From contig DAHUYL010000003.1 of NCBI GenBank assembly GCA_027315255.1, forward strand, positions 1 to 60,312: a stretch of DNA of 60,312 nt, in the 5' to 3' direction. Shown piece after piece: positions 11,853-24,863 of the stretch. Position numbers and translations under genes: made by a program. The notes beneath the pieces were generated by a model. The model saw only the letters and a list, made by a program, of their open reading frames with translations. It had not been told where the DNA came from and searched no databases. Position 1 is the first letter of the stretch. Every line of letters starts with the position of its first letter. The stretch comes from Solirubrobacterales bacterium (GTDB lineage Bacteria; Actinomycetota; Thermoleophilia; Solirubrobacterales; Solirubrobacteraceae).

Positions 11853-13109
11853 GTGGCCGACCCGCTCGACCCGGCCGGCGTCGACCCTGCGAGCGTTGAC
11901 CGCGCGAGGATCGAGCGGGCCGCGGCCGCCGGCGCCGGGGTCGTGCGCTAGACGCCCGTCGTGAGCTCGCGGACGCTGTCGGGGCGGGCCGGCGGCGTCG
12001 TCGCGCTGAAGGCCGAGAACCTGCAGCGGACCGGCTCGTTCAAGCTCCGCGGGGCGCTCGCGAAGATCGCCTCGCTCGGCGACGGCTGCGCTCACGGGGT
12101 CGTGTGCGGGAGCGCCGGCAACCACGCCCAGGCGGTCGCGTACGCCGCCCGCTCGCTCGGCGTCCCGTGCGAGGTGTTCATGCCCGAGGGGGCGCCGATC
12201 TCGAAGATCGAGGCGGCGCGCGAGCTCGGTGCGACCGTACGGCTCGTCGGCGCTGCCGTCGACGAGTCGTTGCAGGCGGCGCGCGCCCGGGCGGTACAGG
12301 CCGGGATGGCGATGATCCATCCGTTCGACGACCCGGACGTGGTCGCGGGCCAGGGCGGGCTCGGGCTCGAGCTGCTGCGCCAGGTGCCGGACATCGCGCG
12401 GGTGGTGGTGCCGATCGGCGGCGGCGGGCTGATCGGCGGCGTCGCGGTCGCGCTCAAGTCCGAGCTGCCGGACCTCAGCGTCGTCGGCGTTCAGGTCTCG
12501 GCGTCGGCGTCGGTGCCGGCGTCGCTCGCCGCGGGAGCGCCCGTCGCGGTCGAGCCGGCGCTGACGATCGCCGACGGGATTGCGATCAAGCGCCCGGCCC
12601 GGCTGACGCTGGCCTTGATCCAGTCGCTGGTCGACGAGGTGGTGCAGGTCGACGAGGACGAGGTGTCCGAGGCGATGATGTTCCTGCTCGAGCGGGCCAA
12701 GCTCGTGGTCGAGGGGGCCGGAGCGGTCGGCGTCGCCGCGCTGCTCGCGGGCAAGCTGTCGGCGACTCCGAACGGCACGACCGTCGTGATCCTGTCGGGC
12801 GGCAACGTCGACGCGGGGCTGCTGGCGGAGGTCGCCCGCCGGCACGAGACCCAGGCCGGCCGGCGGCTCGTGCTGCAGGCGCGCATCTCAGACCGTCCGG
12901 GATCGCTCGCGCGGCTGCTGACGATGCTCGGCGAGCTCGGCGCCAACCTGCTCGACGTCCAGCACATCCGCGAGGGGATCGACCTCAGCATCCGCGAGAC
13001 CGGCGTGCAGCTCGTGCTCGAGACGCGTGGGGGCGAGCACGCCCGCGAGGTGACGCGCGCGGTCCGCGACGCCGGCTACCCGGAGCCCGGCTGGCGCGCT
13101 GAGCTGTGA
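11853..13109 (+). CDS. ilvA: Threonine ammonia-lyase, interrupted by an in-frame TAG at codon 33
   Basis: A PLP enzyme that deaminates threonine to 2-oxobutanoate for isoleucine synthesis. The full frame starts at GTG 11853, two bases after ridA. Residues 20-32 (ERAAAAGAGVVR) match the family N-terminus, then codon 33 (11949-11951) is TAG, and the same frame resumes TPVVSSRTL, KAENLQRTGSFKLRG (PLP lysine), the Gly loop VVVPIGGGGLIGGVAVA and an ACT domain (LVLQARISDRPGSLARLLTM). Relatives usually read VVRRTPV here, so the stop replaces one arginine codon. Restart at GTG 11961 would give 382 residues without the N-terminal helix. Sequencing error, recent nonsense mutation, suppression or reinitiation are all possible. 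Confidence 0.9.
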
Positions 13110-14113
13110 GCCGGCGGGCATCAGGCGGCCGGCTGCGGCGGATCGCCGCCGGCCTGGCAGGGCTGGCACTGCTCACGAGCGGGGTCATGGCGGCCGGCGC
13201 CCCGGCGCGCACCCCGGCCGCCGGCGCCCCGGCGCGCGTCCCGGCCGCCGCGCGCGGACCCTTCGCCGTCGGCGAGATCGTCGTCACGTACATCGACCCG
13301 AGCCGGATGGTGCGCTTCCCCGGGCGTCCGCCGGAGCCGCGGCAGCTCGTGACGGTGATCCGCTACCCGGCGGTCGGTCCGGCCTCCCGCGTGGATCGGC
13401 TGAGCGCCGCTCCGGCGACGGCCGCGGGACCGTTTCCACTGGTCGTGTTCGCCCACGGCTTCGACGTCACGGCCGGGACCTACTCGAACCTGCTCGAGGC
13501 GTGGGCGCGGGCCGGCTACGTGGTCGCGGCGCCGATCTTCCCGCGCACCAACGTGAGCGCTCCCGGCGGGCCGGACGAGGCCGACATCGTCAACCAGCCG
13601 GCCGACATCAGCTACGTGATCACCTGCCTGCTCGCCGCCAGCGCGGCCGATCACGGGATCCTCGCGAAGCTGATCGACCCGCACGAGATCGCCGTGGCCG
13701 GACATTCCGACGGCGCCGAGACGGCACTCGCCACCGCCTACGATCCGTCCTACCACGACCCGCGCGTCGACGCCGCGGTGATCCTGTCGGGTGCCGAGAT
13801 GACGAACCCTCCGTTCACGTTCGTCCGCCCGAGCCCACCGCTGCTCGCGACCCAGGGGACCGCCGACACGATCAACCTGCCGCAGAACACCTACCAGTTC
13901 TTCGACGTCGCGCCGCCGCCGAAGTACCTGCTGGAGCTGACCGGCGCGCGGCACCTGCCGCCGTACACGCGCGAGCAGCCGCAGCTGGCGGTGGTCGAGC
14001 GGGTGACGACGGCATTCCTCGACCTGTACCTGAAGCACCTCCCGCAGGCCGGCCCCGAGCTCGCGCAGCTGGGGAATGTCAGCGGCGTCGCGTCGCTGTT
14101 CTCCGATCCGTAG
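13106..14113 (+). CDS. Secreted alpha/beta hydrolase (PET-hydrolase/dienelactone hydrolase-like)
   Basis: A 335-residue protein with an N-terminal signal or anchor (SRRASGGRLRRIAAGLAG, then a hydrophobic stretch) and a short tandem repeat of GAPARTPAA. The hydrolase core shows PLVVFAHGF (oxyanion strand), the nucleophile elbow VAGHSDGAETALA and a late His in LTGARHLPPYTREQ. Substrate is unknown; it was probably an esterase acting outside the membrane. The GTG overlaps the lyase stop by four bases (GTGA), so it is cotranscribed with ridA and the lyase. A close paralogue lies at 23763-24863. Confidence 0.88.
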   Translation: MSRRASGGRLRRIAAGLAGLALLTSGVMAAGAPARTPAAGAPARVPAAARGPFAVGEIVVTYIDPSRMVRFPGRPPEPRQLVTVIRYPAVGPASRVDRLSAAPATAAGPFPLVVFAHGFDVTAGTYSNLLEAWARAGYVVAAPIFPRTNVSAPGGPDEADIVNQPADISYVITCLLAASAADHGILAKLIDPHEIAVAGHSDGAETALATAYDPSYHDPRVDAAVILSGAEMTNPPFTFVRPSPPLLATQGTADTINLPQNTYQFFDVAPPPKYLLELTGARHLPPYTREQPQLAVVERVTTAFLDLYLKHLPQAGPELAQLGNVSGVASLFSDP

Positions 14114-14875: not shown

Positions 14876-15044
14876 CTCGACAAAGCCTATCGGCCGCGGC
14901 GCACGGTCGTTCGGATCGAGCAGGCCCTCATGTCTAAGAACTTTTCCACACGCAGGCTGGGTTATACGAACGGATGGCCCCGACCGCCAGGTGCGCGAGG
15001 CTGCCGGTCACTGCATGGAAACCCACTGAAGGGAGCGTTTGCAG

Positions 15045-17477
15045 ATGAAGGCCTTGACTCGTCGGCGGTTCGTCCAGGGCGCGGCCGGAGCCGCAGGGGT
15101 GTTGACCGTAACCGGCGGGCTGCGCTACCTCGACGACGCCGCCCCGGCTTCCGCGGGCGAGATCCGCGGCACCGAGACGCTGTTCCGCACCGGCCACTCC
15201 AACAACTGCGACGGTGCGTGTGGCCACCAGGTGCACGTCGTCGACGGGCGGATCCGGCTGGTCCAGGGCGCGCAGTGGGATCAGACGACGATCGCCGGCG
15301 ACGCCGCCCCGCAATACAACCCGCGCGCCTGCCTGCGCGGGATCGCCCAGATCCAGAACACGTACAGCCCCGACCGTCTCAAGTATCCCTACCAGCGCGT
15401 CGGCGAGCGCGGCTCCGGCCGCTGGCGGCGCCTCAGCTGGGACGAGGCCACCTCGATCGTCGCCGAGAACCTCCAGCGCGTCCAGCAGCGCTACGGCAGG
15501 AAATCCGTGTGGATCGCTCCGTACACCGGCTCGCTGGCGGTGCTCGAGGGCGTCGTCGGAGCCGGCTTCCGGCTCGCCAGCGTGATCGGCGCCTCGGCCG
15601 GCGACTTCGAAGGCGACAACGAGGGCGACAGCTCGACGCCGGCCGGCTGGAACTACGTCCTCGCCGACCCGGACCTGACCGCCGGCGGGATCTTCGACGG
15701 CCACGAGATGACCGACTTCCTGAACGCGAAGGCGATCGTCCTGTGGGCGAACAACGTCGCCGAGACCTCGATCCCCGATTGGCGGATCATCGCCGACGCG
15801 CGCAAGGCCGGCACCCCGGTCGTCTCGATCGACCCGCGCTTCACGCCGACGTCCGCCAAGGCGGACCTCTGGCTGCCGATCCGGCCCGGGACGGACACGG
15901 CCCTGATCGACGGCGTGATCAACTACCTGCTGCTGCACAAGGCGTACGACGCCGCCTACGTCAAGCAGTACACGGTCGCGCCGTTCCTCGTCGACCCGCA
16001 GACGAAGCTGTTCCTGCGTCGCGGCAAGTCCTACCTGGTGATCGACGCCGCCGACGGGCAGCTCAAGCCGGTCGAGCAGGCCAAGGACCCGGACCTGTAC
16101 GGGGAGCACAACGGGGCGCAGTCGGCGCTCACGCTGCTGGCGCAGGCGATGGCGCCGTACACGCCCGAGAAGGTGGCGGCGATGTGCGACCTCGAGCCTT
16201 CCCAGGTGCTCCAGCTCGCCGAGCTGTGGGCGAAGCGCAACCCGCTCGCGGTCCGGGCCGGGTTCGCGCTCTCGCACTGGGGCCGCGGCGATCTGACGAT
16301 GCAGGCGCTGGTGACGCTCCAGTCGCTTGCCGGGAACATCGGCACGCACGGCGGTGGGATCACCACGTTCGCCGGCGGGCTGACGACAACCGCCTTCGAC
16401 CTCGGCAACTGGTGGGCACCGAAGGGAACCGAGATGTTCACGGTGCTCGAGCCGATGGACGCGTGCGGGGCGATGCTCGATGGCAAGCCCTACCCGGTTC
16501 GTGCCGCGTGGTTCATGGTCGACAACTTCGCCCAGCAGATGTCAGACCGCAACAGGGTCGTGCGCGCGCTGAAGTCGCTCGACTTCCTGGTCGTCTCCGA
16601 CTACGTGATGTCGGCGACGGCGGATCTCGCGGACATCGTGCTGCCCGCGTGCACGTACCTGGAGAAGACCGATCTGCTGTCGTCGAACAACTACTACCTG
16701 CAGTACATGCCGAAGGTGATCGACCCGTTGTGGGAGTCGAAGTCCGATCTCGACGCGATCACGCTGGTCGCGGGCAAGATGGGCTACGGCAAGTACTTCG
16801 ACAAGTCGCCCGACGAGTACCTGCAGGAGATCCTCCACATCGGCGACCCGAAGGCCGATCCGAACGTGAGGGGCCTGAAGTGGGAGCAGGTCACGGGCGG
16901 GGCTCCGCACCTGAACACGCCGACGGTGCCGTATGTCGCGTTTGCGAACAAGCAGTTCCCGACGAAATCGGGCCGGATCGAGTTCTACGTCGAGCGACTG
17001 ATCGAGTACGACCAGCAGCTGCCGGGCTACAAGGTGCAGCTCGAGGCCTACAGGGAGAACCCGCTCGCCCAGAAGTACCCGCTCACGTTCCTGTCCACCC
17101 ACACCCGGTTCCGCACCCACTCGCAGTACGTGAACCTGCCGTGGTTGAAGGAGATCAACAACAACGGAGAGGGGTTCCTCGAGATCAACCCGGTGGATGC
17201 CCGCCGGCGCGGGATCGCCGACGGCGACGTCGTCCGGGTGTTCAACGACCGCGGCCAGATGAAGGTGCGGGCGCGGCTCACGGAGGGGATCAAGCCGGGA
17301 GTCGTGAACTGCTATCAGGGCGGCTGGGACACGATCCGGGTCAAGCACTACATCGAAGGACATCCGAACAACCTCACCCACCAGATCGCCAACCCGACGC
17401 AGTCGGTGATCCCCAACTTCCGTTCGAACGCGGCGTACTACGACTGCCTGGTCGAGGTGCAGAGGGAAGGAGCCTGA
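15045..17477 (+). CDS. Tat-exported molybdopterin oxidoreductase, catalytic subunit
   Basis: An 810-residue member of the DMSO-reductase superfamily. The N-terminus has a twin-arginine signal (TRRRFVQG). The proximal Fe-S site is H51-x3-C55-x3-C59-x36-C96 (GHSNNCDGACGHQV, later RACLRG), a His-first pattern known from the type II branch (nitrate, selenate, perchlorate, ethylbenzene enzymes) rather than the four-Cys pattern of DmsA. The Mo-site region reads ANNVAETSIPDWRII, where Asp is a candidate Mo ligand. Further cofactor blocks are VVSIDPRFTPTSAKADLWLP and the C-terminal FLSTHTRFRTHSQY. ATG 15045 has GGGAG nine bases upstream. It heads a five-gene operon; substrate and direction of catalysis cannot be read from sequence. 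Confidence 0.92.
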   Translation: MKALTRRRFVQGAAGAAGVLTVTGGLRYLDDAAPASAGEIRGTETLFRTGHSNNCDGACGHQVHVVDGRIRLVQGAQWDQTTIAGDAAPQYNPRACLRGIAQIQNTYSPDRLKYPYQRVGERGSGRWRRLSWDEATSIVAENLQRVQQRYGRKSVWIAPYTGSLAVLEGVVGAGFRLASVIGASAGDFEGDNEGDSSTPAGWNYVLADPDLTAGGIFDGHEMTDFLNAKAIVLWANNVAETSIPDWRIIADARKAGTPVVSIDPRFTPTSAKADLWLPIRPGTDTALIDGVINYLLLHKAYDAAYVKQYTVAPFLVDPQTKLFLRRGKSYLVIDAADGQLKPVEQAKDPDLYGEHNGAQSALTLLAQAMAPYTPEKVAAMCDLEPSQVLQLAELWAKRNPLAVRAGFALSHWGRGDLTMQALVTLQSLAGNIGTHGGGITTFAGGLTTTAFDLGNWWAPKGTEMFTVLEPMDACGAMLDGKPYPVRAAWFMVDNFAQQMSDRNRVVRALKSLDFLVVSDYVMSATADLADIVLPACTYLEKTDLLSSNNYYLQYMPKVIDPLWESKSDLDAITLVAGKMGYGKYFDKSPDEYLQEILHIGDPKADPNVRGLKWEQVTGGAPHLNTPTVPYVAFANKQFPTKSGRIEFYVERLIEYDQQLPGYKVQLEAYRENPLAQKYPLTFLSTHTRFRTHSQYVNLPWLKEINNNGEGFLEINPVDARRRGIADGDVVRVFNDRGQMKVRARLTEGIKPGVVNCYQGGWDTIRVKHYIEGHPNNLTHQIANPTQSVIPNFRSNAAYYDCLVEVQREGA

Positions 17478-17480
17478 GCG

Positions 17481-18227
17481 ATGGCCACCGAACAGAAGAG
17501 AGAACCGCACTGGGCGATGGTGATCGACCAGGAGCGGTGCGTCGGCTGCTGGACGTGCGCGGTCGGCTGCAAGGAGATCAACAACGAGCCGCTCGGGGTG
17601 TGGTGGAACCGGATCCTGACCGCCAGCCCGAACGAGATAACCGGTGAGGCAGCGGCCCCTTCGCCGGCGGCGCCGGCGAGTGACAACATCGACGTCCCGC
17701 ACGGTGTCTTCCCGGCGCTCGAGATGGACTACATCCCGGTTGCCTGCCAGCACTGCAACGACGCGCCGTGCCTGCGGGTGTGCCCGGTCGGGGCGACCTT
17801 CCGCCGCGACGACGGGACGGTGCTGATCGACTACGAGCGGTGCATCGGCTGTCGCTACTGCATCGCCGCGTGCCCGTACGGGGTACGCGTGTTCGGCTGG
17901 GGACAGGAGAAGCGCGACCCGGACTTCACGGTCGGCTATGGCCGCGACTACCGCACCGACGGTGGCCGGCTCGTGTTCACCCCGGACCGCCCGACCGGCG
18001 TCGTCGAGAAGTGCACGTGGTGCGTCGAGCGGGTCGACGAGGGCCAGCAGCCGTTCTGCGTCGACGTGTGTCCCACGGGGGCGCGGGTGTTCGGCGACGC
18101 CGGCGACTCCGGCAGCGAGGTCGCGGGGCTGATCGAGCAGGGTGGCGCAACCCGGCTGCTGCCCGAGCTCGGCACCGAGCCGCGCGTGTTCTACCTGCCC
18201 GCCAAGCCTGAGAGGAGCCTGTCATGA
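17481..18227 (+). CDS. Four-cluster ferredoxin subunit (DmsB/NrfC-like) of the Mo enzyme
   Basis: A 248-residue electron-transfer subunit with four Cys groups: CVGCWTCAVGC (20-30), CQHCNDAPCLRVCP, CIGCRYCIAACP and CTWCVERVDEG followed by FCVDVCP. This is the usual arrangement of four [4Fe-4S] clusters that lead electrons between a Mo subunit and a membrane quinone subunit. An insert between the first two groups is rich in Ala/Pro. It has no signal peptide, so it is probably exported as a complex using the Tat signal of the catalytic subunit. It starts three bases after the catalytic gene and overlaps the next gene by four. Confidence 0.95.
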   Translation: MATEQKREPHWAMVIDQERCVGCWTCAVGCKEINNEPLGVWWNRILTASPNEITGEAAAPSPAAPASDNIDVPHGVFPALEMDYIPVACQHCNDAPCLRVCPVGATFRRDDGTVLIDYERCIGCRYCIAACPYGVRVFGWGQEKRDPDFTVGYGRDYRTDGGRLVFTPDRPTGVVEKCTWCVERVDEGQQPFCVDVCPTGARVFGDAGDSGSEVAGLIEQGGATRLLPELGTEPRVFYLPAKPERSLS

Positions 18228-19468
18228 GCGCGATCGAGCCCACGCTGGCGCTGCCGAAGGCGAGGGACCGGATCGTCGGGCGCGGCTGGATCGTCGCGCT
18301 CGCCCTGCTGGCGCTGGTCGGATTCGGCGCGTGGATCTACCAGCTCACCCAGGGGCTGGTCGTGACCGGGATGCGCGACGTCGTCTCCTGGGGGATGTAC
18401 ATCTTCACGTTCGCGTTCTTCGTCGGACTGTCCGCCGGCGGGCTGATCATGGCGTCTGCGGCCGAGCTGTTCGGGATCCGGAGCCTGCGGCCCCTGTCGC
18501 GGATCGGGGTGATGACCGCGGCCGCGTGCGTGCTCGTCGCCGCGATGATGATCATCCCCGATCTCGGCAAGCCCGCGCGCGTGTGGGAGCTGTTCCGCTA
18601 CCCGAACTGGCGCTCGCCGCTGGTCTGGGACGTGATCATCATCGTCGTCTACTTCTGCTTTGCGTCCGCCGACCTGATCGTCATGACCCGGCGCGGGATC
18701 GCGCCGGGGAGGCGGGGCCGGATCCTGCGCATGATGGCGCTCGTCGGGTTGCCGGCGGCGGTGATGCTGCACACGATCACCGCTTGGATCTTCGGTCTGC
18801 AGATCTCGCGGCCGTGGTGGAACACGGCGCTGATGGCGCCCGTGTTCGTCGTCTCCGCGATCCTGTCGGGCACCGCGCTGGTCGCGCTGGTCGCGCTCGC
18901 CGCGCGACGCTTCGGCCGCCTCGAGCTGCCCGACGAGACGGTCTCGGCGCTGCGCAAGCTGATCATCACCGCGATCTGCGTCGAGCTGTACATGGTCGGC
19001 GCCGACTACGTCACGATCCTGTGGGGCAACGTGCCCAGCGAGCGCGCCGCGCTCGACATGATCCTGCCGGGCGGCAGCTGGCAGTGGGTGTTCTGGCTCG
19101 AGTGGATCGCCGGTGGGCTGTTCCCGCTGATCCTCCTCTCACTCCCGCGGCTCCGGCGCCGGCCGGGCATGATGGCGCTCGCCTCCGTGCTGGTGCTGGT
19201 CGGCGTGTACGCGTTCCGGATCGAGCTCGTCGACGGCGGCCTGCTGAAACCGCTCGTGATGCTGGCGCCGGGCCAGTCGATGGGTAGCTTCACGGCCGGC
19301 CAGAGCAGCTTCCAGCTGATCGGCAACTACTACCCGACGTGGGTCGAGTTCGCGATCACCGCTGGGATGATGGCGTTCCTGGCGCTGCTGATCACGCTCG
19401 GCTACCGGTGGCTGCGCTCGCTCGAGGCCGGTCACGGCGCCGCCGAGCCGGAGGGGGCGGGCGGATGA
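18224..19468 (+). CDS. NrfD/PsrC-like membrane subunit
   Basis: A 414-residue integral membrane protein with about nine to ten hydrophobic helices. The first helices contain WIYQLTQGLVVTGMRDVVSW and FVGLSAGGLIMASAAELFG, matching the NrfD family that exchanges electrons with quinone without haem. In this operon it is the membrane anchor and quinone site for the Mo and ferredoxin subunits. It starts ATGAGC overlapping the ferredoxin stop (ATGA) and itself overlaps the chaperone gene by four bases, so the subunits are translationally coupled. Confidence 0.93.
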   Translation: MSAIEPTLALPKARDRIVGRGWIVALALLALVGFGAWIYQLTQGLVVTGMRDVVSWGMYIFTFAFFVGLSAGGLIMASAAELFGIRSLRPLSRIGVMTAAACVLVAAMMIIPDLGKPARVWELFRYPNWRSPLVWDVIIIVVYFCFASADLIVMTRRGIAPGRRGRILRMMALVGLPAAVMLHTITAWIFGLQISRPWWNTALMAPVFVVSAILSGTALVALVALAARRFGRLELPDETVSALRKLIITAICVELYMVGADYVTILWGNVPSERAALDMILPGGSWQWVFWLEWIAGGLFPLILLSLPRLRRRPGMMALASVLVLVGVYAFRIELVDGGLLKPLVMLAPGQSMGSFTAGQSSFQLIGNYYPTWVEFAITAGMMAFLALLITLGYRWLRSLEAGHGAAEPEGAGG

Positions 19469-20028
19469 CCGCCGGGGCGGCGCTGCTGGCGCGCTGGTGG
19501 AGCCGCCCGACGGCGCAGGAGCGCGACTGCTGGGACGGACTGTGGCCGCTCGCCGACGAGGCGGCGGCCGCGCTCGAGCTCGAGCCAGGTGCGCTCGCCG
19601 AGCTGCGCGCGGCCGTCGCGGCCGCGTCCGGCGAGGCGCTGCTCGACGAGCACGAGCGGCTGCTCGTCGGGCCGGGCCGCCCTCCCTGCGCCCCGTACGA
19701 GTCGCTGTGGCGCGCCGACCTGCCGGCCCGCGAACGCGGGTCGCTGATGGGATCCGCCGCCACCGCGGTCGAACAGGTGTACCGCGACCTGGGGCTGCGG
19801 ATGCGCGCCGGCAGCGGCGAGCTGCCCGACCACCTGGTGATCGAGTGGGAGGCGCTCGCCTACGCGCTCGAGCACGGGGTCACAGACGCCGCCGACGAGC
19901 TGATCGGAGCGCACCTGTCGCGCTGGATGGGACCGTTCTGCGACGCCGTCGTCGCGCACGCGGAGCTCCCGTTCTACGCGTCGCTGGCTCGCCTGACGCG
20001 GGGCTTCACCGCAGCGCTGGCGCGATGA
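19465..20028 (+). CDS. TorD/DmsD-family maturation chaperone
   Basis: A 187-residue all-helical cytoplasmic protein. LDEHERLLVGPGRPPCAPYE with SLWR and SAATAVEQVYRDLGL, and later LPDHLVIEWEALAYALEH, are the TorD/NarJ signature (core Y-E-S and E-x3-P-D-H). It should bind the Tat signal of the catalytic subunit and hold it for cofactor insertion. ATG 19465 overlaps the NrfD stop (ATGA), and its own stop overlaps the polyferredoxin start the same way. Confidence 0.92.
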   Translation: MTAGAALLARWWSRPTAQERDCWDGLWPLADEAAAALELEPGALAELRAAVAAASGEALLDEHERLLVGPGRPPCAPYESLWRADLPARERGSLMGSAATAVEQVYRDLGLRMRAGSGELPDHLVIEWEALAYALEHGVTDAADELIGAHLSRWMGPFCDAVVAHAELPFYASLARLTRGFTAALAR

Positions 20029-21452
20029 GCGAGACGGCGATCGCCGTGCTCGTCTGCCGCGATGCCTGTCCGGGGCTCCTCGCGGCGCCCGCGGACTCCG
20101 CGGCGGTTCCGGTCGAGGACCTGTGCGAGCGTCCCGACGCTGCCGCACAGGAGCTCCGCCGCGCGGGCGCCTCGCGTGCCGTGCTCGGGGTGTGCGCGCC
20201 GCCCTCGCGCGACCTGCTCGGCGCGCTCCCGCGGGCCGGCGCGGTCCCGTTCGGGATCCAGTCGGTGGTGCTCGCCGGACGCGACCCGGACGAGGCCCGC
20301 GTGCTGATCGGCGGCGCGGTCGCGCGGCTGGGGGCGCTCGCGCCCGGTGAGCGCGGGAAGCCGCGGATCACCGACGGCGCCGTCAGCCGCCGGTCGCTGT
20401 TCTCGCGTGCGGCGGTGCTCTACGACGCACCGGTGGCGGTGCTCGACGCGGAGGCGTGCACCGGCACCGCGGGCTGCGGGATCTGCATCGAGCGCTGTCC
20501 TCACGGTGCGGTCGACCGCGCGAGCGGGACCTCGCCGGCGGGGCGCGTTCCCGCCGTCGACGCGGACCGGTGTGCCGGGTGCGGCGTGTGCGTGTCAGCC
20601 TGCCCGTCCGGGGCGCTACGGCTCAGCGGGTGCTCGACCGCGCAGGTCGAGGCCCAGCTCGACGCGCTGCTCGAGCACTTCGATGGGCTCGTGCTCGCGT
20701 GCGAGTCGGCGCGGCCAGACGGCGAAGCGCTGCCGCGAGGGTGGGCGCGCATCGAGCTTCCGACGCTCGGGTTGCTCACGCCCGGCTGGCTGCTCCAGCT
20801 TCGCCTCCGCGGCGTCGCGACGAGGCTCGCACCGTGCGAGGGTCGTTGCTGCGAGGGCGCGCTCGAGCTCGAGGCGCTGGCCGGACGGTTGATCGCGGCG
20901 GGTGCAGGCCACCAGCCAGCACCCGCCGCGGGCGAGCCGCCCATCTCGCCCGGCGAACCGCTCCGCCTGACGGAGCCTCGCGCGACCGCCGATGCCGTTC
21001 GCCGGATCGCGGATGGGCTGCCGGTGCTCGACGATCGCGCGCCGCTCGGCCTCGTGTCGTTCGACCCCGAGCGCTGCACGGTGTGCGGCGCGTGCGCGCT
21101 CGCGTGCCCGACGGGCGCGCTCGCGCTCGAGCAGGCGGACGACTCGGGCGCGGTGCTGCTGCACGACCCAGCCGCCTGCGTCGCGTGCGATCGCTGCGCC
21201 CGCGCGTGCCCGGAGCAGGCGCTCGGCGTCGCTCGCGGGATCGACGGCGCCCGGCTGCGCGCCGGCCCGATCGAGCTGATCCGCGACCAGCCCGAGCGGT
21301 GCCTCGTGTGCGGTGCGCAGCTGCCGCCCCGCCCGCTGCGCCGCCGGCTGCGCGAGCTGCTGCCGTTCCTGGCGGACGCCCCGCTCGAGCTCTGCACCGG
21401 CTGCGGCGCCCGCGCGGCTAGCGCCAGCCGAGCGCCGGCGCCACGTGGGTGA
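20025..21452 (+). CDS. Polyferredoxin with HdrA-like N-terminal domain, last gene of the Mo operon
   Basis: A 475-residue, probably cytoplasmic protein. The first 120 residues resemble the N-terminal part of HdrA-like proteins (SRAVLGVCAPPSRDLL, then GRDPDEARVLIGGAVARLGA). Ferredoxin groups follow: CTGTAGCGICIERCP, CAGCGVCVSACPSGAL, a middle domain with VLACESA and CEGRCC, then CTVCGACALACPTGAL and CVACDRCARACPEQAL, and two C-terminal CxxC pairs (CLVCG, CTGCG) resembling a zinc or rubredoxin-like site. At least four [4Fe-4S] clusters are expected. Dedicated respiratory Mo operons do not usually carry such a protein; it may link the complex to cytoplasmic donors or assist assembly. The 3' end overlaps the convergent LLM gene by 35 bases. 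Confidence 0.85.
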   Translation: MSETAIAVLVCRDACPGLLAAPADSAAVPVEDLCERPDAAAQELRRAGASRAVLGVCAPPSRDLLGALPRAGAVPFGIQSVVLAGRDPDEARVLIGGAVARLGALAPGERGKPRITDGAVSRRSLFSRAAVLYDAPVAVLDAEACTGTAGCGICIERCPHGAVDRASGTSPAGRVPAVDADRCAGCGVCVSACPSGALRLSGCSTAQVEAQLDALLEHFDGLVLACESARPDGEALPRGWARIELPTLGLLTPGWLLQLRLRGVATRLAPCEGRCCEGALELEALAGRLIAAGAGHQPAPAAGEPPISPGEPLRLTEPRATADAVRRIADGLPVLDDRAPLGLVSFDPERCTVCGACALACPTGALALEQADDSGAVLLHDPAACVACDRCARACPEQALGVARGIDGARLRAGPIELIRDQPERCLVCGAQLPPRPLRRRLRELLPFLADAPLELCTGCGARAASASRAPAPRG

Positions 21453-22440
21453 GGATGTTCTCGATCACGTGGGCGTTGTACTCGACGCCGAGCTGGTTGG
21501 GCACGGTCAGCAGCAGCGTGTCCGCCGCCTCGATCGCCTCGTCCGCGCGCAGCTGCTCGACGAGCACGTCGGGCTCGGCCGCGTACGAGCGACCGAAGAT
21601 CGCGCGGGTGTTCTCGTCGATCATCCCGATCTGGTCTCGCGAGCTGCCGTCGCCGCCGAAGTAGGCGCGGTCGGTGTCGGTCGTGAGCGCGAAGATGCTG
21701 CGGCTGACCGACACCCGCGGACGGCGGTCGTGCCCGGCCTCGCGCCACGCCTCGCGATAGGCCTCGATCTGCTTGCGCTGCTGGACGTGCAGCGGCTCGC
21801 CCGTCTCGTCGTCCTTGAGCGTCGAGCTCTGCAGGTTCATTCCCAGCTGCGCGGCCCAGACGCCGGTCGCGTTCGATCCGGATCCCCACCAGATCCGGTC
21901 CCGCAACCCGGCCGAGTACGGCTCGAGACGCAACAGCCCGGGCGGATTGGCGAACATCGGTCGCGAGTTCGGCTGTGCGAACCCCTCGCCCTCGAGCATC
22001 TGGAGCGCGACCTCGGTGTGCCGGCGCGCCATCTCGGCATCGCTCTCACCGTCGGCGGGCGCGTAGCCGAAGTACCGCCAGCCGTCGATCACCTGCTCGG
22101 GTGAGCCGCGGCTGATCCCCAGCTGCAGCCGCCCACCGGCGATCAGATCCGCCGCGCCGGCGTCCTCGGCGAAGTACAGCGGGTTCTCGTAGCGCATGTC
22201 GATCACGGCCGTGCCGATCTCGATCCGCGAGGTCCGCGCGCCGATCGCCGCCAGCAGCGGGAACGGCGAGGCCAGCTGGCGCGCGAAGTGGTGAACGCGG
22301 AAGTACGCGCCGTCGGCTCCCAGCTCCTCGGCGGCGACTGCGAGCCCGATCGACTGCAGCAGCGCATCCGCGCCCGAGCGCGTCTGCGAGTGCGGGCTCG
22401 GGCTCCAGTGACCGAACGACAGGAATCCGATCTTCTTCAT
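21418..22440 (-). CDS. LLM-class flavin-dependent oxidoreductase
   Basis: A 340-residue TIM-barrel protein of the luciferase-like monooxygenase family. Typical parts are MKKIGFLSFGHW, ADGAYFRVHHFARQLASPFP, IEIGTAVIDMRYENPLYFAE and GRLQLGISRGSPEQVIDGW. It would use FMN or F420 to oxidise an unknown substrate. I chose the internal ATG at 22440 because it starts the family's first strand and overlaps the RNase H stop (ATGA); upstream residues in that frame belong to the RNase H gene read out of phase. Confidence 0.93.
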   Translation of the reverse strand: MKKIGFLSFGHWSPSPHSQTRSGADALLQSIGLAVAAEELGADGAYFRVHHFARQLASPFPLLAAIGARTSRIEIGTAVIDMRYENPLYFAEDAGAADLIAGGRLQLGISRGSPEQVIDGWRYFGYAPADGESDAEMARRHTEVALQMLEGEGFAQPNSRPMFANPPGLLRLEPYSAGLRDRIWWGSGSNATGVWAAQLGMNLQSSTLKDDETGEPLHVQQRKQIEAYREAWREAGHDRRPRVSVSRSIFALTTDTDRAYFGGDGSSRDQIGMIDENTRAIFGRSYAAEPDVLVEQLRADEAIEAADTLLLTVPNQLGVEYNAHVIENILTHVAPALGWR

Positions 22441-22940
22441 GCGCGCTGGAGCACCGGGGGAGGGGAGGTGCCGGCGGCGATCCGGCCGGCGTGGATGTCG
22501 CGCTCGTGCACGGCGAGCCGGTCGCAGCGCTCGTTCAGCTCCCGGCCGGCGTGGCCCTTGACGCGCTCCCAGCTGATCGTGTGGGGCGCAGCCGCCTCGA
22601 GCAGGGCACGCCACAGGTCCTGGTTCTTGACCGGCTGGCGCCCGCTCCTCCAGCCGTTGCGCTGCCACTTCGCCAGCCAGCCGTCGACGAACGCGTCGAC
22701 CAGGTAGGCGGAGTCCGGGAGGATCGTGACGCTCGCGGGGCGCGCGAGCGCGCGCAGCCCGTGCAGCGCCGCGGTCATCTCCATCCGGTTGTTGGTCGTG
22801 TGCGGCGCGCCTCCGTGGCCCTCGAGCTGCTTCGCGATCGTGCCGTCGGCTCCGCGTGCGACGAGGACGAACGCCCAGCCACCCGGACCGGGGTTGCCCG
22901 AACAGGCGCCGTCGGTCCAGAGCTCGGTCGTGAACGCCAC
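22437..22940 (-). CDS. rnhA: Ribonuclease HI
   Basis: A 167-residue cytoplasmic nuclease that cuts RNA in RNA-DNA hybrids. All four catalytic acids are visible: Asp10 in LWTDGACSGNPGPGGW, Glu54 in NNRMEMTAALHGL, Asp76 in PDSAYLVDAF and Asp140 in NERCDRLAV; the basic segment GWLAKWQRNGW is the hybrid-binding handle. GTG start at 22940 with TACAGT six bases upstream on the coding strand, so probably leaderless. It is translationally coupled to the LLM oxidoreductase. Confidence 0.95.
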   Translation of the reverse strand: MAFTTELWTDGACSGNPGPGGWAFVLVARGADGTIAKQLEGHGGAPHTTNNRMEMTAALHGLRALARPASVTILPDSAYLVDAFVDGWLAKWQRNGWRSGRQPVKNQDLWRALLEAAAPHTISWERVKGHAGRELNERCDRLAVHERDIHAGRIAAGTSPPPVLQRA

Positions 22941-23762: not shown

Positions 23763-24863
23763 GTGCACGTGGCTCCCGCAACTCGAACAAGACGTCCGAC
23801 CCGGGCGGCCGTCCGCCGCCGCCGCTTGACCGCGCTCGTCGTGCTGGCGGCGATCGTCGCCGGCGGGATCGCCGTGATCAGCGCGGCCGGTGGCGCGGGC
23901 CGGCCACTCGGGCCGGGGCATCCGCGGACGCCGCTCGTCGGCGCGCCGGCTCCCGTCCGGTCGACCACCGTGCGAACGGCCACGACCCACACGGTCGCCG
24001 CCACCGGATCCGGCACGCGTGCCGTCCATCCGCCCAGGCGGCTGGGGCCGTTCGGCGTGGCCGAGACGGTGATGCGGATCGTCGATCCGACCCGGACGGT
24101 CACGTTCCGAAATGGCGAAACGGAGCCCCGGACGCTCGTCACCTACGTCCGCTATCCGACCGCCCGGGGGGCGGGGCCGTTTCCGCTGATCGTGTTCGGC
24201 CACGGGTTCGCCGAGACGCCCGGGTTGTACGCGCAGCTGCTGCAGGCGTGGGCGCAGGCCGGTTTCGTGGTGGCCGCGCCGCTGTATCCGCTCGCCAACC
24301 CGAATGCTCCCGACGGGCCGCTCGAGTCCGACCTGCCGAACCAACCGGCCGACGACCGGCTCGTGATCACGCGTGTGCTGGCCGCCTCGGCCGCGGCCTC
24401 ATCGCCGCTCCACGGCCTCGTCAACCCGCGGCAGATCGCCGTCGCCGGCCAGTCCGATGGCGGTGACACGGCCCTGGCGGTCGGCTACGACCCGCCGTAC
24501 CGGGACCCGCGCGTGGGCGCCGTGATCGTCCTGTCCGGCGGCGAGATCCCGTTCCTGCCAGCGTTCCAGATCGCGCCGGGCGGTCCGCCGTTGCTCGCCA
24601 CCCAGGGCTCCGACGATCCGATCAACCCGCCGAGCGCGACGGACGCGTTCTTCGACAGCGCGCCACCGCCGAAGTTCCTGCTGTGGCTTCCCGGCGCCAA
24701 CCACCTGCCCCCGTACTCGACCGAGCAGCCCCAATTGCAGACCGTGGCCCGGGTCTCGATCCTGTTCCTGCGCCACTACCTCGAGCACGTACCCGGCGCG
24801 CTGCGGCGGATGGCGGCGGCCGGCAACCGTCCCGGGATCGCCACGCTCACCTCCGACCCGTGA
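23763..24863 (+). CDS. Secreted alpha/beta hydrolase, paralogue of 13106-14113
   Basis: A 366-residue protein with a basic N-terminus, a hydrophobic signal or anchor helix (LTALVVLAAIVAGGIAVISA) and a hydrolase core. The oxyanion strand is PLIVFGHGFAETPG, the nucleophile elbow VAGQSDGGDTALA and the late His LPGANHLPPYSTEQ. It shares segment order, the phrase PxLATQG and the ending GxATLTSDP with the paralogue, but the residue before the nucleophile Ser is Gln instead of His. Substrate unknown. Its end overlaps the convergent acyl-CoA synthetase by 17 bases. Confidence 0.88.
   Translation: MHVAPATRTRRPTRAAVRRRRLTALVVLAAIVAGGIAVISAAGGAGRPLGPGHPRTPLVGAPAPVRSTTVRTATTHTVAATGSGTRAVHPPRRLGPFGVAETVMRIVDPTRTVTFRNGETEPRTLVTYVRYPTARGAGPFPLIVFGHGFAETPGLYAQLLQAWAQAGFVVAAPLYPLANPNAPDGPLESDLPNQPADDRLVITRVLAASAAASSPLHGLVNPRQIAVAGQSDGGDTALAVGYDPPYRDPRVGAVIVLSGGEIPFLPAFQIAPGGPPLLATQGSDDPINPPSATDAFFDSAPPPKFLLWLPGANHLPPYSTEQPQLQTVARVSILFLRHYLEHVPGALRRMAAAGNRPGIATLTSDP

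Follow-up and report, generated by a model that had tools for sequence, protein, structure and literature searches.

In subfamily II of the dimethyl sulfoxide (DMSO) reductase family, the FS0 cluster of the catalytic subunit is ligated by one His and three Cys, and the beta subunit carries three [4Fe-4S] clusters and one [3Fe-4S] cluster; the beta subunit of ethylbenzene dehydrogenase (EbDH) has a [3Fe-4S] cluster, and the ligand pattern is nearly the same in nitrate and perchlorate reductases (PMC8840923). In Halobacterium, the dms operon is required for respiration with DMSO or trimethylamine N-oxide (TMAO) (PMC1971269), and TorD-nrfD-hybA-bisC operons, in which two to three open reading frames (ORFs) accompany TorD, are a described class in Gram-positives, Chlorobia and Archaea (PMC4464133). 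NapF, a cytosolic protein with four labile clusters, is needed for Fe-S reconstitution of NapA in Rhodobacter; in E. coli, the two proteins bind each other (PMC10609526). Here we describe a five-gene operon (genes A to E, positions 15045-21452, plus strand) of a Solirubrobacterales bacterium, located in a window of 60,312 nucleotides that is the whole of contig DAHUYL010000003.1 (assembly GCA_027315255.1; 4.3 Mb, 92% complete, and taken for a metagenome-assembled genome, MAG). Its catalytic subunit A forms, within the references treed, a separate lineage that does not belong to the type II clade. We read the operon, with a probability of roughly one half, as encoding a membrane-anchored, quinol-linked respiratory reductase (A-B-C) that is exported by the twin-arginine translocation (Tat) system and matured by a TorD-type chaperone (D) and a NapF-like polyferredoxin (E). 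Three things are new: how traits combine in A and B, that E occurs regularly, and that E bears a twin-arginine motif.

Results

Subunit A is a lineage outside the type II clade

A preliminary description of this DNA, made from the sequence alone, had likened A to the type II branch on account of its H-x3-C-x3-C-x36-C motif. A script count confirmed the motif, and its four ligands (H51, C55, C59 and C96) are invariant among the aligned A proteins of the family, together with N54, H61, R98, D195, H411, W412 and the Tat signal residues R6 and R7 (18/18 in each case; the alignment holds 18 of the 25 A proteins, without those of loci L035, L038, L040, L044-L046 and L049). The FS0 His is kept in all 22 family rows that cover its column.

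In a 46-row tree and in a 30-row careful tree, a subset of the former, the family was one clade (support 100* and 100/100, respectively), and NarG, pNarG, ClrA, PcrA, EbdA and an Alisedimentitalea enzyme made up a separate type II clade. Forcing the family inside the latter cost 52 log units and was rejected by the approximately unbiased (AU) test (p=5.87e-05). Three unions were not rejected and leave the sister group open: with all six type II rows as sister (p=0.523), with the haloarchaeal and five other rows (p=0.187; no such clade appeared in the free trees) and with the Ser-type DmsA plus TorA (p=0.114). A firm place inside a characterised clade, which the preliminary description had named as an outcome that would speak against it, thus did not appear in these trees, which were built without PsrA, PhsA, TtrA, ArrA, SoeA, SerA and DdhA and with PcrA and EbdA as stitched segments; the 46-row tree also omits the near-copies L035 and L038 and the fragments L044-L046. 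Moreover, two enzymes from phylum relatives that fall outside type II, L066 and L070, also have the FS0 His, which is therefore exclusive neither to type II nor to the family described here. The likeness to type II accordingly stood for the His-Cys3 ligation and the Asp described below, and fell for membership of the clade. None of the 25 NCBIfam models among the matches listed for A reached its cut-off; the best was TIGR02166 (361 of 778 bits), and the type II model TIGR03479 scored 353.4 of the 984.75 bits needed. A structure prediction of A (predicted local distance difference test, pLDDT, 48.9) was not used. In a separate observation, a conjugative plasmid (L060, 3960-9489) carries a chlorite-dismutase-family gene adjoining a type II-like enzyme with Asn at the FS0 His column.

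D195 is the candidate Mo ligand: phmmer aligned it with Asp170 of PcrA, and NarG, ClrA and the haloarchaeal enzymes also have Asp at this column. A Ser ligand of the bacterial DmsA type was not found, the column of Ser197 being Ala in 14/18 proteins and that of Ser196 Ala in 1/18. In the accessible part of a study of PcrA, H454 is described as a possible proton donor, K104 as an electron bridge, N63 as substrate-binding and H70 as FS0-tuning (PMC8301774; precursor numbers, by our count the mature numbers plus 28). The window residues at these columns are H411, R98, N54 and H61, and the His411-Trp412 pair matches E. coli NarG and PcrA at the same columns.

Two other candidates were set aside. 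The sulfur reductase SreABCDE is a five-gene cluster. It was dropped because SreA, in archaea and bacteria, is listed as a Cys-ligand enzyme (PMC10100899) and the window has Asp at this column. Catechol dehydroxylases (PMC7028382, in its accessible part) were considered by way of relatives taken for Coriobacteria; no link was found, with no known dehydroxylase in the trees.

Subunit B sets the family apart from type II

C124 of the Fe-S subunit B occupies a column that is Trp in NarH, Tyr in ClrB and pNarH, and Phe in the partner of the Alisedimentitalea enzyme, which sets the family apart from type II. We take this column of the beta subunits to be the [3Fe-4S] site; with Cys at that column, B departs from the type II composition of three [4Fe-4S] clusters and one [3Fe-4S] cluster.

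The five-gene order recurs across loci

All five ORFs are real, in the order A-B-C-D-E. As the preliminary description had stated, the genes are tightly coupled, with a gap of 3 bases between A and B and ATGA overlaps at B/C, C/D and D/E. The order recurs across loci, which, like the conservation of the FS0 ligands, speaks against a chance finding. Gene A was started at ATG 15045; the ORF list gives TTG at 15039. The NrfD membrane partner was likewise borne out by Pfam (Table 1). Gene C has 17 overlapping hydrophobic windows, which we merged into about 10 segments, and scored 152.7 bits against the DsrP model, below its cut-off of 350.

One scan of genome contigs gave 24 loci with an A 62-82% identical to that of the window. 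All are titled MAG, with labels including Actinomycetota/Actinobacteria, Acidimicrobiales, Acidimicrobiaceae, Acidothermaceae, Solirubrobacteraceae, Jatrophihabitans, Nakamurella, Thermoleophilia, Clostridia and Bacillota. For several of them, words like palsa and bog in the isolate names of the record titles point to peat (the habitat is our reading), and other names might be read as mine drainage or acid soil. Of the 19 loci long enough to show both, 18 have D together with a recognised polyferredoxin; the other five (L027, L034, L035, L038 and L046) end before the position of E. By tblastn, E was found in 13 of the 24 loci and D in 16. Further evidence came from blastp clustering (an E-type ORF in L030), from hhalign to the N-domain profile (the start of E in L041; 97.7%, E 1.4e-12) and from Pfam (D in L043 and L045, 4.1e-21 and 1e-23, and a polyferredoxin in both); the polyferredoxin of the latter two also begins in L032, whose D crosses an ambiguous base by eye. 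In the nineteenth locus, L039, D is present together with an open frame that contains TRRDVI, runs to the contig end and shows no match to the E N-domain profile; this locus was counted as undecided. Absence of the polyferredoxin from all related operons, the other outcome held to count against the preliminary description, was therefore not observed.

A variant is found in L032, L043 and L045: identity to the B and C of the window is 39-44%, and the polyferredoxin is shorter where it is complete (L043, L045). The loci are not independent events, since L034/L035 and L033/L038 are near-copies and L034 and L044 come from the same assembly. Copies labelled Bacillota and Actinomycetota fall in one clade of the 46-row tree, which suggests either transfer or contigs misplaced in MAGs. 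A was found at E<=1e-60 in 1 of 201 sampled genomes of the order and E at E<=1e-10 in 1 of 101 sampled genomes of the family, in both cases the source genome itself, and weaker relatives occur in 10 others among 396 sampled genomes of the phylum; these searches sampled larger groups and scored only first-look candidates (<=16 per genome), so that misses are possible.

In the fetched stretches, Mo-cofactor genes of the MoaA type occur in 5 loci, of the MoeA type in 4 and MoaD-MoaE in 2. Neighbouring genes gave no clue to the substrate (CMD in 5/24 loci, LuxR-type in 4, Nramp and hemerythrin-type in 3 each); for all of these, one member was tested. We found no published account of the five-gene family, which is weak evidence of absence, as the subscription literature was largely beyond reach.

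E is a polyferredoxin with an invariant twin-arginine motif

We aligned E from 12 proteins, leaving out L030, L039 and L041 (cut by contig ends), L044 (equal to L040), the variant L032/L043/L045, and L031; the N-domain alignment has 10 rows, as L040 and L049 were also left out for their different-looking N-domain. The claim of at least four clusters held, with four Fer4 stretches, the first of them irregular: C151 is missing in 3/12 relatives, and L036 also lacks C145. The E model (12-row alignment; pLDDT 82.2, predicted template modelling score, pTM, 0.80) begins with an alpha/beta N-domain and ends in a C-terminal four-Cys region; between them, two ferredoxin pairs flank another alpha/beta domain. 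The twin arginines, in the context [STA]RRx[LV][LF], are invariant (12/12); the model has a pLDDT <50 at residues 110-132, and by eye no hydrophobic stretch follows the SRR motif.

That the N-terminal domain of E is HdrA-like, as had been proposed, is unproven. The N-domain alone (10-row profile) matched no HdrA among PDB sequences, where the best hits were polyketide synthase chains (0.056), or in NCBIfam, and the HdrA sequence matches of whole E fall on its ferredoxin part, residues 121-219. Foldseek with the E model returned chains that we take to be HycF (1.3e-6), HdrA (4.8e-5 and 7.1e-5), FwdF (9.8e-5) and MvhD (0.022; TMt 0.48), of which the HdrA matches are local (TM 0.18-0.19, root-mean-square deviation 27-31 Å, aligned range not given). 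No flavin adenine dinucleotide (FAD) family, a trait of HdrA, was among the matches of the 12 E members, and the model passes from the N-domain to a ferredoxin at 138-200. C11, C34 and C57 of the N-domain follow no ligand pattern that we recognise. The middle domain matched Pfam FlpD in 3/12 members (best 9.5e-5; the window's own row did not match) and gave no match among PDB sequences.

A profile search found relatives of E in 6 of 245 other genomes sampled from the phylum; it, too, scored only first-look candidates and may have missed some. In L084 and L085, a full-length E with the RR motif accompanies B, NrfD and a different molybdoenzyme, whose A is 25-26% identical; in L089, the A in the vicinity of the polyferredoxin is 30% identical. 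In L086, L087 and L088, the polyferredoxin and a downstream Fe-S subunit with a Tat signal share one open frame with no stop between them, although an internal start is also possible; AxA-like sites after the Tat signal, seen by eye, suggest that the parts may separate on export. The RR motif ([ST]RRx[hydrophobic]) is missing from the L087 polyferredoxin and altered in L088 and L089. Mechanical ORF picking found no polyferredoxin in the 8 stretches of phylum relatives inspected. As a distinguishing trait, the polyferredoxin thus holds up in being regular in the family, and gives way in that it also stands beside other molybdoenzymes.

Several side observations concern these relatives. The one-frame arrangements of L086-L088, if real, would place a folded cytoplasmic domain ahead of an internal Tat signal. 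The polyferredoxin-bearing operon of L085 (7426-8966) adjoins genes for a low-molecular-weight phosphatase (ArsC-like by eye), a methyltransferase (ArsM-like by eye) and the ArsR family, hinting at arsenic metabolism there. In L063, L067, L069 and L072, radical-SAM-like and/or small membrane proteins lie between NrfD and TorD, by eye.

Table 1. Genes of the operon and the residues and domains of their products, by position in the window.
Feature	Coordinates	Strand	Details
Gene A, catalytic molybdopterin subunit	15045..17477	+	810 aa, starts MKALTRRRF, N-terminal Tat signal TRRRFV; Pfam Molybdopterin 5.4e-49
A, FS0 ligands H51, C55, C59, C96 (H-x3-C-x3-C-x36-C)	15195..15332	+	Script count
A, Asp195, candidate Mo ligand	15627..15629	+	Column of PcrA Asp170 (mature numbering, our count), NarG Asp, ClrA Asp
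A, His411-Trp412	16275..16280	+	His411 in column of PcrA H454 (precursor numbering), possible proton donor
Gene B, Fe-S subunit	17481..18227	+	248 aa; 16 Cys, four 4Fe-4S motifs; Pfam Fer4_11 2e-23
Gene C, NrfD/PsrC-type membrane subunit	18224..19468	+	414 aa; Pfam NrfD 1.8e-54
Gene D, TorD/NarJ-type maturation chaperone	19465..20028	+	187 aa; Pfam Nitrate_red_del 1.1e-21
Gene E, polyferredoxin	20025..21452	+	475 aa; Pfam Fer4 3.2e-23, 4 stretches
E, residues 1-105, alpha/beta N-domain	20025..20339	+	C11, C34, C57 invariant in 10/10 rows (Cys span 20055-20195)
E, residues 121-126, SRRSLF, internal twin-arginine-like motif	20385..20402	+	R122 R123 in 12/12
E, cluster I (C145, C151, C154, C158), irregular	20457..20498	+	C154, C158 12/12; C145 11/12; C151 9/12
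E, cluster II (C183, C186, C189, C193)	20571..20603	+	12/12
E, residues 203-300, MvhD/FlpD-like middle domain	20631..20924	+	C226, W255, C271 invariant
E, clusters III and IV (C351-C361, C385-C395)	21075..21209	+	12/12
E, C-terminal four-Cys site (C426, C429, C457, C460)	21300..21404	+	12/12

Around the operon, two similar plus-strand ORFs of one blastp cluster (13106-14113 and 23763-24863; 335 and 366 aa) lie on either side and look by eye like alpha/beta hydrolases. A convergent minus-strand ORF (21418-22668) resembles, by eye, a luciferase-type flavin oxidoreductase; its 3' end and that of gene E overlap tail to tail, over 35 bases. Elsewhere in the same genome, contig C8 (14404-17724; L003, L004) holds a 1277-aa open frame that is NarG-like by size and match, so that nitrate reduction may fall to another enzyme.

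Discussion

Under our preferred reading, a respiratory reductase matured with the help of E, quinol, which in such hosts is menaquinol, would be oxidised at the NrfD subunit C. By way of B, with its four [4Fe-4S] clusters, and then the His-ligated FS0 in A, electrons would reach a Mo-bis(pyranopterin guanine dinucleotide) cofactor held by Asp195. There, a small substrate carrying oxygen, such as an S-oxide, N-oxide or oxyanion, would lose that oxygen with His411 as the proton donor. D would guard the A precursor in the cytoplasm before export, and E, also acting there before export, would supply or repair an Fe-S cluster or provide electrons, as NapF does for NapA. In favour of this reading are the recurrence of D and a polyferredoxin at the loci, the separate clade and its exclusion from type II, the invariant A residues at columns with named roles in PcrA/NarG, the 16-Cys B, the haloarchaeal operons of like order that we take for dms, and the Mo-cofactor genes in the fetched stretches. 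That E may mature the exported A before Tat transport is suggested by the NapF analogy, by its gene order with the chaperone and by the one-frame relatives L086-L088, the profile homology to NapF extending only over the ferredoxin pair. A bolder version, a long shot in our estimation, has the invariant and probably flexible [STA]RRx[LV][LF] segment of E as a decoy Tat signal that mimics the signal peptide of A and docks on TorD; an E-TorD redox checkpoint would release the signal of A only once the clusters of E are loaded and one has been passed to A, with NapF as a reduced and L086-L088 as a covalent form of the same device. The proposal of a new respiratory enzyme is plausible, and A is its own lineage in these trees.

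Several points weigh against this reading. Sequence does not reveal which way the electrons flow, and a proton-donor His is no mark of reductases: the His411 column is Lys in chlorate reductase ClrA just as in EbdA (where the pair is Lys-Ser), and Asp in Haloferax pNarG. The PcrA/NarG gate of Phe192, Tyr193 and Trp489 is not kept (the PcrA Trp itself lies outside the compared segment); in the family, column 188 is S in 10/18 and F in 8/18, 189 is E or Q, and 446 is L, M or I (PcrA/NarG: Trp/Glu). The trees, with three alternative unions unrejected, do not settle the sister group. As for E, its alignment with NapF covers one generic ferredoxin pair only (hhalign), it scored 44.5 of the 102.2 bits needed for the NapF model TIGR00402, and the effect of NapF is only marginal in E. 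coli and Wolinella, according to the accessible part of the source (PMC10609526). The E of L031 (6311-7777) lacks the first two ferredoxin motifs and keeps the RR motif, through either a true deletion or an assembly error. Since the gate residues differ, the substrate is probably not one shared with PcrA or NarG. Perchlorate reductase had been suggested by the CxH, HW and Asp pattern, and was dropped because the aromatic gate is missing.

E might instead serve permanently in electron transfer, as a cytoplasmic subunit that sits on the NrfD complex and links a donor or acceptor of the cytoplasm (ferredoxin, thiol/disulfide) with the enzyme in the manner of Hdr, which we consider improbable. The FlpD/MvhD-like middle domain of 3/12 members, the weak fold matches to chains that we take for HdrA, MvhD and FwdF, the invariant extra Cys (C11, C34, C57, C226, C271 and the C4 site) and the sharing of one frame with an Fe-S subunit in L086-L088 would fit such a subunit. 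However, without a FAD domain it would have no known flavin-based bifurcation, the Tat signal puts the active site of A outside, the HdrA fold matches are local, and the AxA-like sites of the one-frame relatives suggest separation on export.

The complex could also run as a dehydrogenase or hydroxylase that oxidises an organic or sulfur compound and passes the electrons to the quinone pool via NrfD. Asp-type enzymes include EbdA and DdhA (table in PMC10100899), and the several loci that we assign to peat come from a place rich in organic substrates. Nevertheless, His411-Trp412 agrees with E. coli NarG and PcrA rather than with the Lys-Ser of EbdA, a weak argument given the Lys of the reductase ClrA, and the NrfD/TorD-linked Asp-type operon with a published role, haloarchaeal dms by our identification, encodes a reductase; we regard the oxidative direction as unlikely.

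We think it similarly doubtful that the operon simply encodes a DmsABCD-type DMSO/TMAO reductase like that of haloarchaea. Two Halomicrobium plasmids (L050, L051) carry what we take for a DMSO/TMAO reductase dms operon (DmsEABCD). Like the window, they have the order A-B-NrfD-TorD and Asp at the Mo-ligand column; their B is 44-45% identical to that of the window, with Cys at all aligned cluster columns, and their C 36-38%. Their A, in contrast, is only 30-32% identical and has Cys where the window has His at FS0, and the two form no clade in the free trees, the union with the haloarchaeal and five other rows being neither shown nor rejected. The two annotated haloarchaeal stretches contain no polyferredoxin, and L050 has a small acidic first gene instead.

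It is very unlikely that A belongs to type II proper and has merely exchanged its membrane subunit: the His ligand of FS0, the Asp, the HW pair and the unrejected union with all six type II rows speak for it, but the trees reject a position within that clade, the Trp/Tyr/Phe column is Cys in B, and A falls far short of TIGR03479.

With this family, whose MAGs carry the labels of two phyla, the superfamily behind many inorganic respirations gains a coherent lineage. By uniting His at FS0, Asp at Mo, an all-Cys B and NrfD, the family separates features usually thought to travel together, and E offers a testable handle on how Fe-S clusters enter exported molybdoenzymes before the Tat gate. Finding the substrate could reveal one more electron acceptor (or donor) in use in peat and the like.

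Comparison with known systems

The type II branch (NarG, PcrA, ClrA, EbdA) has in common with the window family the His-Cys3 FS0 and the Asp, as well as the HW pair in E. coli NarG and PcrA, but its clade excludes the family, and it differs in the Trp/Tyr/Phe column of the beta subunit, in gamma subunits other than NrfD and in the gate residues. The bacterial DmsABC/YnfEFGH systems, to which the best-scoring NCBIfam model belongs, have a Ser ligand and a Cys-ligated FS0, and lie in a separate clade, their union with the family being unrejected.

For E, the likeness to NapF lies in four 4Fe-4S motifs, one of them irregular (C-x7-C-x2-C-x3-C in E. coli NapF), in an SRRxIL motif (SRRGIL after five residues in E. 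coli) and in an operon shared with an exported molybdoenzyme and its chaperone; unlike E, NapF has 164 aa and neither alpha/beta domains nor a C4 site. HdrA/MvhD of the methanogen heterodisulfide reductase share with E the FlpD/MvhD match of the middle domain, seen in 3/12 members, and the ferredoxin pairs, whereas E has no FAD domain, an N-domain without sequence match and a different context. Of the TorD-nrfD-hybA-bisC class, the accessible part of the account mentions no polyferredoxin, and mentions ferredoxins for TorD-fdh operons (PMC4464133).

The preliminary description had held that the combination of traits matches no named complex. This stands in so far as A falls in no characterised clade of the trees; an Asp-type catalytic subunit with NrfD, in the order A-B-NrfD-TorD, already exists in haloarchaea and is not new. 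By architecture, as far as the sequences tell, these haloarchaeal operons appear to be the nearest complex.

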